Source: a virus. Taken from it: a stretch of DNA of 41,271 nt. Numbering within the stretch: the first letter of the stretch is position 1; each line of letters opens with the position of its first letter. The DNA is taken from positions 1 through 41,271 of IMG/VR virus record IMGVR_UViG_3300010885_034267. One strand, written 5' to 3'. Positions 36,086-39,823 of this stretch are shown here, one piece after another. The notes under the pieces were generated by a model, which saw only the letters and a list, made by a program, of their open reading frames with translations, was not told the origin of the DNA and did no database searches. A program made the position numbers and the translations under genes.

Positions 36086-36517
36086 TTATTTTTGGGCGAA
36101 TCCTAACTTTCTGAAAACATTTATTGATTTCCTATTCCAGCTATCAACTTCAGCATATACATTACCATTTACATAATTTGAGATTACATAGTATAACATA
36201 TCCGATGCTCCATAGTTACGTTTGAATTGTGATGATTTAGAAAATACATTATAGATTTTGTATTGTGATTCATCCGATTGATGTAACCAACAATACCCAA
36301 ATAACTCCGCATCGTAACGTGCTACATATAATCTATCTCCATTCATTATCCGTTCTAATGCAGTATCTATATTAAACATACCATCCCAATCCAGTTCCCA
36401 ATTGAACATATCAATACATTGTCCAATCACTACCACATCAGTAGATTCTGTAATTACTAATTTGGTTGATAATTTCCGTTGGATTAAATCAGTAGGTTCT
36501 AATGAAAATGTTATCAT
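36086..36517 (-). CDS. GNAT-like acetyltransferase
   Basis: A 143-residue protein resembling small N-acetyltransferases that move acetyl from acetyl-CoA to an amine. The C-terminal half follows the GNAT layout: GDRLYVARYDAELFGYCWLH (beta4), IYNVFSKSSQFKRNYGASDM (acetyl-CoA loop region, here without the standard Q/RxxGxG/A in full), YVISNYVNGNVYAEVD and a final WNRKSINVFRKLGF, which matches the common 'N..a...yeklGF' ending. It overlaps the radical SAM gene by four bases (ATGA), so the two are translationally coupled and may act on the same substrate. The incomplete cofactor loop makes activity uncertain. Confidence 0.65.
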   Translation of the reverse strand: MITFSLEPTDLIQRKLSTKLVITESTDVVVIGQCIDMFNWELDWDGMFNIDTALERIMNGDRLYVARYDAELFGYCWLHQSDESQYKIYNVFSKSSQFKRNYGASDMLYYVISNYVNGNVYAEVDSWNRKSINVFRKLGFAQK

Positions 36518-37557
36518 ATCAGACCTCGTATGGTTGGTTTAATCGAATGTGTTTCTATAATATCATACATATTGTGTCTACAATTGTATATCTTTGTTAT
36601 CTTATGTAGTTGTTCTAAGAATGAATTAAATTGTGGATGAGATTCACTCCATATCTGTTTCTTCAAATATTGTTCTTCTGAATATGTTCCCCAATTACTT
36701 ATCTTATTAAAATAGGTAGTTGCTTTATTCTTAAATATTTTCATAATCATATCGTGAAAATCTCGCATTTCCAAATAATTTGTATCTTGTACAACAAATG
36801 AAACACGAACATCTCGTAATTTAAGTGTAGATATAAATTCTAAATTAGTTAGTAGTGTTTCCCAATTACCACCACGTCTTACTTTCTCATATGTTTCCTT
36901 AGTTGCCGCATCCACACTTATCTCTATTGTATTTAATAAATTATATATTGGTGCTAATTCATCCCAAAGTTCTTTCGTCAATAGCAGTGCATTGGTATGT
37001 AGATGTATATTACTTATATTCGGAAATTTCGTTCTATCAAAATTTATTAAAAAGTTTCTAAATGATTTTGATGCAAATGGGTCTGCATTACCACATAGAT
37101 ATATAGTCCGAATACTATTACCATATAACTCAGTAACTGCTTTAATCGTCTTCTCTGTGAACTCTACTTCAATCTTATTGGACATTATAACACTTGTCCT
37201 ACATGATTCGCAAGATAAGTTACAACTTCTATCAAATGAAAAGTTAACAGTAGTTGGACCTGTATTGTGTGTGAGTTGTTTAACTAAGGATTTTTCAGCA
37301 AACCCAGTAGAATCGGATTCGTTTATTAGACGTGAAAGATATGGACATTCCGTTTTGGAACAATAACGATACGAACCATCTGAAACGGATTCTCTAACTT
37401 TATTAGCAATCTCTCCATCCCAGACTCCGGCTAATTCAGCCGTTTTACCATATACAATTGGCAACCAAGTTGGACAGCAACCATATACATCATTATTGTG
37501 AATTTCCAAATAGTTGAATGGAGAATGGCAGATGTATTTATCTAGTATAGTGACCAT
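36514..37557 (-). CDS. Radical SAM enzyme
   Basis: A 347-residue radical SAM protein. The [4Fe-4S] motif CxxxCxxC is present as CNLSCESC near residue 113, following the strand TVNFSFDRS. Later YLCGNADPFASKSF matches the 'GGEP' region, and TIEISVDAATKETYEKVRRG with NWETLLTNLEFI matches the 'iSlDg....h...Rg....d....nl' block of SPASM-type enzymes. The N-terminal 80 residues carry four more Cys (CHSPF, YGCCPTW, YCSKTECPYLS), which may bind an auxiliary cluster or Zn; in SPASM proteins the extra cluster is usually C-terminal, so this is unusual. It lies between a Zn-ribbon protein and the GNAT-like enzyme. Target unknown; a protein or peptide modification is plausible. Confidence 0.82.
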   Translation of the reverse strand: MVTILDKYICHSPFNYLEIHNNDVYGCCPTWLPIVYGKTAELAGVWDGEIANKVRESVSDGSYRYCSKTECPYLSRLINESDSTGFAEKSLVKQLTHNTGPTTVNFSFDRSCNLSCESCRTSVIMSNKIEVEFTEKTIKAVTELYGNSIRTIYLCGNADPFASKSFRNFLINFDRTKFPNISNIHLHTNALLLTKELWDELAPIYNLLNTIEISVDAATKETYEKVRRGGNWETLLTNLEFISTLKLRDVRVSFVVQDTNYLEMRDFHDMIMKIFKNKATTYFNKISNWGTYSEEQYLKKQIWSESHPQFNSFLEQLHKITKIYNCRHNMYDIIETHSIKPTIRGLI

Positions 37558-37572
37558 TATATAGTTATAATA

Positions 37573-37842
37573 CTATAAAAGTGTTTTCTTTTTTTTAGTT
37601 GGATTAAAATGTATATCATCAACTTCTTTCCATTTATTCAATGGACATGGGTTGAAATCATTAGTAAATATCTTCTTACCAATTGGACACCCACATTCTG
37701 AACAAAATGGTATTTTTTTTAGAATCGTATTTTTAGAATCGCAATCATCACATATACTACCCCGTAACTCAGCCAATTTCAATTGTCTTTCATTTGGGTT
37801 ATTAGCAATAGACCAAGCTTCTATAATTTGTTTGAAGTTCAT
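37573..37842 (-). CDS. Small Zn-ribbon protein, 89 residues
   Basis: The protein has a helical N-terminus (FKQIIEAWSIANNPNERQLK) and six to seven Cys in Zn-ribbon spacing: CDDC, then CSECGCPIGKK, then CPLNKW. The 'C..C......C..CGCpi..K......CP...W' pattern is known from small phage and bacterial zinc-ribbon proteins. It ends with a basic KKKKTLL tail. It lies 15 bases before the radical SAM gene, and both lie in the same small operon as the GNAT-like gene. It may present a substrate or nucleic acid to these enzymes; this is inference. The reading frame and Cys pattern make the gene itself secure. Confidence 0.7.
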   Translation of the reverse strand: MNFKQIIEAWSIANNPNERQLKLAELRGSICDDCDSKNTILKKIPFCSECGCPIGKKIFTNDFNPCPLNKWKEVDDIHFNPTKKKKTLL

Positions 37843-37986: not shown

Positions 37987-39504
37987 TTAAGGATTACAAA
38001 TTGCACACGTAACGCCTCTGGTTCCTGAACATTTACCAGCATCACTTCCATCCGTTTGTGGACAACAATATTGACCCTTTCCACACTCGGCTTGGGTGCT
38101 GCATGATGTTGCGGGTGCCGTACATGTTACGTTGTGTTCAATTGCGGCAAATGATGTATTATCGGATGTTTGTGTTAGGAATATATGATTCTCTTCAACT
38201 GTAATTTCCCATCCACTAAATATTTGTCTACTCATTACAACGGATTGTACTTCTTTCAATACGGCAGTTAATTCTGAATTTGCTGTGTTGATTAGGATTA
38301 TATTATCACCAACTTGAATTGAATTGGGTGATTCCGATATGTGTAAATTGACAAATCTAACATTATTATTTCTTAATATTAAATAATTTGAATTATTTGT
38401 ATCTTCCCATATGGTATTATCCGTAAATGTAATAGTAACATAATCAACCACCTTATCAACTCGTGTTTTATTTAAAATTTTATTAGAGGTATATACTACA
38501 CCATCTACGAATGTTTGATAATCAATTGCAAAATCTGCTAAATTATTTTCCAAACTAACATTATTTGGATTTGGCATTATGATGGTTTTTACAACATCAC
38601 CATTTTCCAATTCCAGTGCTGTTTTAAATGTACCATCTGCCATCTCAACCTTATCTGTATCTAATAACTTTGGTTGGCTTATACCACCTTCCGCTGTAAT
38701 ATATTTAGTTCTATCTGTATTTGATAATTCAAATGTAGTGTTATCAAATGTAGAAGTTTCATCAATATTTCTGGTAGTTATTTTTGTATTTTGCCCGATG
38801 GTTATACTGTTCAGATTTGGTGGAAATAATAAATTGAAACTTCTAAATACCTGAATATGGTTTTGGTATAATTTAGTTGGGTTATAGTGAAACTCTACCA
38901 AATGATACTCTGATGTTACATTTTGTAATACAACATCTAATTCCGATTGGTTTGCTACTTTGAATAATTTCGGATATACATTTTTATCATAAGTGGGATA
39001 CACTGCTTTTAGAATAAAGTTTGGATGATTACCATTATCCGGTATATTTGTTATGTTATTAACCAAATTGCCATCCGTATCTTTATATGCAAATTGAGAA
39101 CCAAATGTTTGATTCTTAATTAGGTTTAAGAAATTGGTTTTAACTTTACAATACTCATCATCTACTAATGCAGTTGAATCATACGCACTTCGTATAATAA
39201 GATGTGTATCCGAATCCTCAACAAATGGAACAGTTAATCCATTTACTTCAAAATGCTCATACTCTATTCCAATTAAAGTGCAGAGTTCCTGTAATTTTAG
39301 ATATAATCGGTATAACCCACCAATGTATGAAATCTTTGTAAATCCATTTGAGTTTACGAATGTGGTTAATTGTGTTAAATCAAATATATCATTGGATGCT
39401 TCGACAGGATACCAGTCCATTCCTAGATTCGTATTTGTTTCGATTGGTACTAAACTACCATCACTTTTAAACATAAAGTCTGTTCCTAATAATACCGTTC
39501 TCAT
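37987..39504 (-). CDS. Mosaic protein: ATP-grasp-like part, degenerate Hint domain, Cys-rich tail
   Basis: A 505-residue protein of unknown role. Residues 1-260 look ATP-grasp-like: LLGTDFMFKSDGSLVPIETN with TN resembles the 'E.NtN' metal motif, normally near the end of that fold. HLIIRSAYDSTALVDDEYCK and FILKAVYPTYDKNVYPKLFK resemble nucleotide-binding strands. At about 278-460 there is a Hint (intein/hedgehog) pattern: DKVEMADGTFKTALELENGD, then VGDNIIL, and VEENHIFLTQ ... AAIEHN. The N-terminal Cys/Ser nucleophile is absent and no Cys, Ser or Thr directly follows HN, so splicing is not expected. The last 45 residues have ten Cys (CGKGQYCCPQTDG). It is not a signal-peptide protein. Domain calls are inference from pattern. 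Confidence 0.5.
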   Translation of the reverse strand: MRTVLLGTDFMFKSDGSLVPIETNTNLGMDWYPVEASNDIFDLTQLTTFVNSNGFTKISYIGGLYRLYLKLQELCTLIGIEYEHFEVNGLTVPFVEDSDTHLIIRSAYDSTALVDDEYCKVKTNFLNLIKNQTFGSQFAYKDTDGNLVNNITNIPDNGNHPNFILKAVYPTYDKNVYPKLFKVANQSELDVVLQNVTSEYHLVEFHYNPTKLYQNHIQVFRSFNLLFPPNLNSITIGQNTKITTRNIDETSTFDNTTFELSNTDRTKYITAEGGISQPKLLDTDKVEMADGTFKTALELENGDVVKTIIMPNPNNVSLENNLADFAIDYQTFVDGVVYTSNKILNKTRVDKVVDYVTITFTDNTIWEDTNNSNYLILRNNNVRFVNLHISESPNSIQVGDNIILINTANSELTAVLKEVQSVVMSRQIFSGWEITVEENHIFLTQTSDNTSFAAIEHNVTCTAPATSCSTQAECGKGQYCCPQTDGSDAGKCSGTRGVTCAICNP

Positions 39505-39514
39505 ATATTGTATT

Positions 39515-39823
39515 TTAAATAATTAACTTCTTCTTAATAGATATTACTCTTCCACAATTTTCATATGCTTCGGATACTAATGAATGTTCGTATATCCATT
39601 CTAATAATTCGATATACTCTTTTCTAACTACGGTAACGTATGCTGATATACCTTTGAATCGGAATATGATAATTTCATCTACGTCAAACTTCTCAGAGAA
39701 CTCATCTACTATATTCAACATAGTAACTAAATCTGATTCCGTTAGTCTGACACGATTAATGTATTCTTTCCAGTCTACCGTAATATATTTATCTTTTGAA
39801 CCACTTAATTCTTTTACATTCAT
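39515..39823 (-). CDS. Uncharacterised protein, 102 residues
   Basis: An alpha/beta protein without recognised motifs: YITVDWKEYINRVRLTESDL, VDEIIIFRFKGISAYVTVVR, then YIELLEWIYEHSLVSEAYEN and a basic IKKKLII end. It lies 10 bases before the 505-residue mosaic gene and is probably co-transcribed with it. Upstream, 25 bases before the ATG, is a TATTTATA element, itself inside a near-consensus host promoter (TTTG, 20 bases, TATATTTA). It may thus be expressed both early and late. Function unknown. Confidence 0.55.
   Translation of the reverse strand: MNVKELSGSKDKYITVDWKEYINRVRLTESDLVTMLNIVDEFSEKFDVDEIIIFRFKGISAYVTVVRKEYIELLEWIYEHSLVSEAYENCGRVISIKKKLII

Follow-up and report, generated by a model that had tools for sequence, protein, structure and literature searches.

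A viral protein family joining an ATP-grasp-like part, a Hint domain and a hypervariable cysteine-rich tail heads a cassette of tagged enzymes

The Gene and Its Family

The window, by which we mean the whole stretch of DNA analysed (41,271 nucleotides, IMG/VR virus record IMGVR_UViG_3300010885_034267), comes from a record with a GC content of 33% in which baseplate, primase and SbcCD-like genes are present. A preliminary description of this DNA had placed an open reading frame at 37987-39504 and read it as a mosaic of ATP-grasp-like, Hint and Cys-rich parts. The frame is a real gene, on the minus strand and 505 amino acids long, and both structural and family evidence now support the three-part layout. 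The gene and its neighbors are laid out as follows, with counts that refer to 58 homologues and their loci:

39515..39823, minus strand: small upstream gene, 102 aa, ending ...KKKLII, which is tag-like (from its sequence)
38674..39504, minus strand: circularly permuted ATP-grasp-like region, residues 1-277 (AlphaFold/Foldseek match to yeast glutathione synthase)
38131..38673, minus strand: Hint domain, residues 278-458, N-terminal chemistry half lost and C-terminal end kept (Foldseek)
38131..38136, minus strand: His457-Asn458, predicted C-terminal cleavage pair, equal to positions 6 and 7 of intein block G (58/58)
37990..38130, minus strand: hypervariable Cys-rich tail, residues 459-505, 8 Cys (even Cys number in 58/58; dN/dS)
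37573..37842, minus strand: zinc-ribbon-like protein, 89 aa, ending ...KKKKTLL (family in 49/58 loci, mostly just downstream)
36514..37557, minus strand: radical SAM protein, 347 aa, ending ...IRGLI, which is tag-like (Pfam Radical_SAM, E 5e-10; 29/58 loci)

Besides the window protein, scans of IMG/VR returned 57 distinct full-length homologues (identity to the query 43-56%), each with all of the parts in one order, so that the layout is common to 58 distinct proteins, far beyond chance. We call these proteins carriers and their main group family A. They are common in freshwater viral contigs, some of them longer than 200 kb. One 211 kb phage (IMGVR_UViG_3300042892_005961; L018 and L077) has two carrier genes whose tails differ. 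Neither the window protein alone nor the family could be reliably matched to Pfam, PHROGs or NCBIfam, relatives were not found among GenBank phages at E values up to 10, and the family was absent from 50,697 phage records and from the bacterial and archaeal genomes searched. A profile search of the fetched loci found neither enzyme-only nor Hint-only relatives: every family-A relative there consists of enzyme part, Hint and tail (contig-end fragments excepted), and proteins lacking the middle part, which the preliminary description had proposed to look for, were not among them. The records compared are fragments, and all of the evidence is computational.

The N-Terminal Part

An AlphaFold model built with 58 sequences reached a pLDDT of 86.5 and a pTM of 0.82 (a model built with 3 sequences, at a pLDDT of 48.5, was set aside). 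When it was compared with the PDB by Foldseek, the only non-Hint matches above noise were yeast glutathione synthase 1m0t (E 2.9e-4, probability 1.00, at a whole-chain TM-score of only about 0.25) and the glutathione-synthetase-like nematode effector 5oev (probability 0.98). Along residues 1-277, the motifs run from D9 and E22-x-N24-T25 through a Rossmann-like part to R105, D109, D115, K122, K166 (in HPNFILK) and R221. Every one of these residues is present in 58/58 homologues, and the equivalents of D9, E22, N24, T25, R105, D109, D115, K166 and R221 show no variation across an alignment of 19 members with identities down to 19%. This set of Asp, Glu, Asn, Lys and Arg looks like that of an active ATP-grasp, with the metal-site D/E/N and the Lys/Arg positions assigned by motif and not by superposition.

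Why should the E-x-N-T motif come first, an oddity that had been noticed from the start along with other ATP-grasp features? Polekhina and colleagues (1999, cited in PMC2213659) are reported to have shown that eukaryotic glutathione synthetase is a circularly permuted ATP-grasp, and the unusual order in the carrier would follow because the enzyme it resembles is itself permuted. Foldseek follows chain order; a permuted protein should therefore match a permuted family, and that is what we see. The methods that read sequence tell us less. Pfam and PDB profile searches with the N-terminal part in native and permuted order gave no match, HH comparison with Escherichia coli GshB and Gss gave a signal not above that of unrelated controls, and short-motif searches of the PDB returned nothing. 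Because sequence methods give no support, we hold the ATP-grasp assignment as probable and go no further than that. Could this part instead be an unrelated alpha/beta domain, ATP-grasp-like in motif and partial fold only? Such a domain would be compatible with every other reading given below, and the nil HMMER and HH results in either order, along with the low global TM-score, are what it would predict. Against it stand the D-x(12)-E-x-N-T motif with its invariant Lys and Arg and the fact that the only above-noise matches outside the Hint are glutathione synthetases, a family known for permutation; we consider it quite unlikely. The carrier thus shares with eukaryotic-type glutathione synthetase the permuted order (E-x-N-T ahead of the Rossmann-like part) and the fold match, but its N-terminal part is shorter, has no sequence-profile match, is fused to a Hint and a Cys-rich tail, and has been found only in phage contigs.

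A Hint Domain with One Working End?

The Hint layout proposed for the second half of the protein is borne out by the model. Its best match is the BIL2 structure 6y75 (E 8e-8, TM 0.72 by target), with further Hint-fold matches to hedgehog 1at0 and to many inteins, and some family members give weak PT-HINT and Hint profile matches. Splicing by inteins needs the N-terminal residue, and the C-terminal site is cut by Asn cyclisation (PMC4031507). By motif register, the position of the nucleophile is Pro278 in 58/58 carriers, in agreement with the preliminary description, which had also remarked that no Cys, Ser or Thr directly follows the His-Asn pair. That holds for the window protein, where residue +1 is Val; in the family, V, Y, G and A predominate at this position (few have Ser or Thr), and no first Cys comes earlier than +3. 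The block-B T-x-x-H is missing, its His position being Ser in 56/58 (Ser372 in the window protein), and the block-F His is kept in 46 and absent in 12. The His-Asn terminus, by contrast, is invariant (58/58). Judged by conservation, what remains of this Hint is what C-terminal cleavage needs. In some inteins, the penultimate and block-F His are dispensable, and in several, C-terminal cleavage is tightly coupled to the earlier steps (PMC4031507).

Has the domain decayed? Pooled over 12 pairs, dN/dS is 0.15 for the enzyme part, 0.14 for the Hint and 0.34 for the tail. Because of that low value and the invariant His-Asn, we regard the Hint as not decayed, with only the N-terminal half of intein chemistry gone. 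The earlier wording had been “domesticated or decayed”: structure and family favor the first word, and the second finds no support in a Hint as constrained as the enzyme in front of it. The same observations weigh on the idea of a fossil, a selfish insert in an ATP-grasp gene that lost splicing and is now inert, followed by a degenerate C-terminal extein. The lost nucleophile and block-B His would fit, as would the canonical Hints that sit behind a degenerate one in the relatives that we call subfamily C; yet purifying selection on the Hint, the His-Asn pair, about 60 distinct family-A members with one architecture, and no Hint-less relative among the fetched loci make it very improbable.

Known Hint domains offer two comparisons. 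BIL and hedgehog domains share the fold and the HN end, but in BIL type A the residues remain intein-like and an N-terminal thioester step is retained (PMC4031507), whereas the carrier has Pro at position 1 and Ser at the block-B His. The PT-HINT of polymorphic toxins likewise stands immediately before a variable C-terminal cargo (its profile matches one member weakly and subfamily C strongly), but the carrier Hint is without the N-terminal nucleophile, has an ATP-grasp-like part in front, and is followed by a Cys-rich peptide of 23-62 residues and not by a toxin domain, in a phage and not in a secretion system.

The Tail and What Replaces It

Across the 58 homologues, the tail is 23-62 residues long, contains 18% Cys, and is enriched in Cys, Pro, Gly and Tyr. 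It diverges fast: between pairs whose enzyme parts are 75-85% identical, tail identity averages 39%. The number of Cys is nonetheless even in 58/58—4, 6, 8 or 10—and is eight in the window protein (the ten first credited to this tail are the total for the whole protein). Because the counts stay even despite such divergence, they suggest that all Cys are paired and that the tail is destined for an oxidising place. Tail searches of the PDB returned nothing. We also considered positive selection on the tail, for which dN/dS (0.34, or 0.47 without the Cys) gives no support.

More distant relatives have other tails after HN (in some, the end is Peptidase_S74-like) or up to three canonical Hints. 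In subfamily B, the tails have 25-32 residues with 6 or 8 Cys, an even number in 18/18; HN is present in 18/19 members of a divergent subfamily. In subfamily C, the degenerate Hint precedes one to three canonical Hints in tandem. Very short linkers (RA, KF, RF) join these Hints, which mostly end in HN-Lys, and examples lie in L255:2218-4956, L275:11210-13060 and L334-L402. By pattern, T-x-x-H and HN are found in 72/78 of these canonical Hints, and HN of the first Hint lies near the junction in just 34/49. Strict conservation of HN thus goes with having a tail. Still other proteins (L403-L405) have merely a short end after HN.

A further group (L332, L411 and L412/L413) has longer Cys-rich parts. 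L411 stops there, and in L332 (2-1459) and L412 (4512-6503)/L413, a Peptidase_S74-like end follows just past them (Pfam E 0.0035 in L332, below the Pfam cut-off; judged from sequence in L412/L413). Might the whole protein then be an adhesin on the virion, in line with the virion protein suggested at the outset, the Hint a structural spacer, the tail a fast-changing receptor-binding tip, and the neighboring enzymes decorators of virion or host-surface molecules? The chaperone-like ends invite the thought, and there is more: some cassettes adjoin a tail-sheath gene, many predicted phage proteins contain a Hint domain by Foldseek, and a cyanophage 2OG oxygenase adjoins a tail-fibre gene. Phage proteins that combine Hint with Peptidase_S74 do resemble these relatives in their Hint fold and S74-like end. 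However, that end occurs in 3 loci only and is absent from family A, the window protein matches no structural-protein family and the carrier no PHROG tail or fibre family, and a spacer leaves the invariant His-Asn unexplained while other catalytic positions are lost. We rate an adhesin as rather unlikely, although of the alternatives it is the one that we take most seriously.

A Cassette of Enzymes with a Shared Ending

The carrier gene stands at the head of a conserved cassette whose enzymes are 2OG-Fe(II) oxygenases, sulfotransferases, radical SAM proteins, and SET and FkbM methyltransferases. Gene clustering around the 58 loci gives families present in 49 (zinc-ribbon), 47 (2OG oxygenase), 46 and 30 (sulfotransferase-like), 30 (SGNH-like) and 29 (radical SAM), and the Pfam assignments among the members are 2OG-FeII_Oxy_3, Radical_SAM, Sulfotransfer_2, Stf0, SET and FkbM, several below the Pfam cut-off. 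The linkage holds in reverse: when loci were fetched by radical SAM or sulfotransferase, 115 of the 137 contained a carrier, and most of the others were cut by contig ends. Of the cassette, the zinc-ribbon and radical SAM genes alone were recognized in the window; relatives of the small gene at 39515..39823 adjoin the carrier gene in L011 and L014. Often upstream of the carrier are a NodU carbamoyltransferase, an APS kinase-like gene (23 loci), a nucleotidyltransferase and a small membrane protein; in L007, L020, L042, L054 and others, this block, with a DUF2061-like membrane protein, has no tag.

What is the tag? Most of the cassette enzymes, mutually unrelated as they are, end in [KN]-x-[LI]-[LI]. 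This ending occurs in 12 families and at L001, L255, L287, L212 and about 50 other loci (in the window, at 36514-37557, 37573-37842 and 39515-39823) and recurs in subfamilies B and C, a grouping that is partly circular in that the tag was first noticed by eye and then tested. It is found in 0/58 carriers and in no neighboring core family; unaffected families close by score 0/58, 0/26, 0/21, 0/23 and 0/23, and cyanophage homologues of the 2OG oxygenases are without it. We asked whether it might be a DNA element, such as a recombination site or a promoter, and rejected the idea because codon use at the Leu positions is the same as elsewhere in the genes (p 0.66 and 0.63) and nothing is conserved past the stop. 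At the final Ile there is a preference for ATA, for which overlap with the following start is the probable cause. By these measures, the tag is kept at the amino acid level, and we read it as a putative docking or sorting peptide.

A possible peptide-ligating role for the window protein had been raised early on. In one form of it, an active carboxylate-amine ligase could join the Hint-released tail, through its fresh amino end, to the C-terminal carboxylates of tagged proteins or to some other target. ATP-grasp enzymes of the peptide-ligase group make peptide-like linkages (PMC4431377), the equivalents of Asp9, Glu22, Asn24, Thr25, Arg, Lys166 and Arg221 hold down to 19% identity, and carrier and tags co-occur. 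But the tag could equally serve docking, and no sequence match to any ligase family was found; we think such ligation improbable.

Discussion

We have come, tentatively and at somewhat less than an even chance, to the idea that the carrier presents a disulfide-rich peptide on which the tagged enzymes have acted, and releases it by Asn cyclisation. The N-terminal part would be a circularly permuted, glutathione-synthetase-like ATP-grasp in a self-processing protein. Its Hint would be specialised for the C-terminal side of intein chemistry: cyclisation of Asn458, aided by His457, would sever the chain after Asn458 and free the tail without splicing. The tail would be a mini-protein, hypervariable and disulfide-rich. 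Either it or the carrier would be modified by the linked enzymes (2OG-Fe(II) oxygenases, sulfotransferases, radical SAM proteins, and SET and FkbM methyltransferases), assembled by their shared tag, and the mature peptide might act on host or competitors, extracellularly or from the virion. Computation shows the architecture, the conservation, the even numbers of Cys, the linkage and the tag, and cleavage, tail modification, docking by the tag and the place of action are what we infer.

The Hint fold, an HN pair kept in 58/58 alongside the loss of nucleophile and block-B His, the low dN/dS of the Hint, the even tail Cys, the linked enzymes and their tag, and the APS kinase-like gene upstream all speak for such a carrier. 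So does a rise of 2OG gene number with tail Pro (rho 0.46, p 0.0035), only a hint, as it is one of 15 tests, uncorrected and made on related sequences. On the other side, tail Tyr and Lys numbers do not track sulfotransferase numbers, the block-F His is absent in 12/58, the carrier itself is untagged, the S74-like end of two relatives suggests a fibre-type protein, few cassette genes are recognized in the window, and C-terminal cleavage in inteins is sometimes coupled to earlier steps.

The nearest known parallel is the RiPP cluster (graspetides, radical-SAM peptides), in which a hypervariable peptide end is likewise linked to an ATP-grasp as well as to enzymes of radical SAM, oxygenase, methyltransferase and sulfotransferase-like kinds. 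In the phage cassettes, by contrast, a single protein combines precursor, ATP-grasp and processing domain, the enzymes share a C-terminal tag, and the peptide product is a candidate only. The observations point to an undescribed phage system that makes, and probably releases, a modified peptide. The fullest version—a self-contained system of permuted ATP-grasp, one-sided self-cleaving Hint and hypervariable disulfide-rich peptide, with mobile tailoring enzymes directed by a tag and diversified peptides aimed at host or rivals—is one that we would call unlikely as a whole. Should the carrier model hold, the Hint domain would serve phages as a built-in protease in producing modified Cys-rich peptides, and a C-terminal tag would label the members of the modification pathway; the tag alone provides a sequence handle for finding such clusters.
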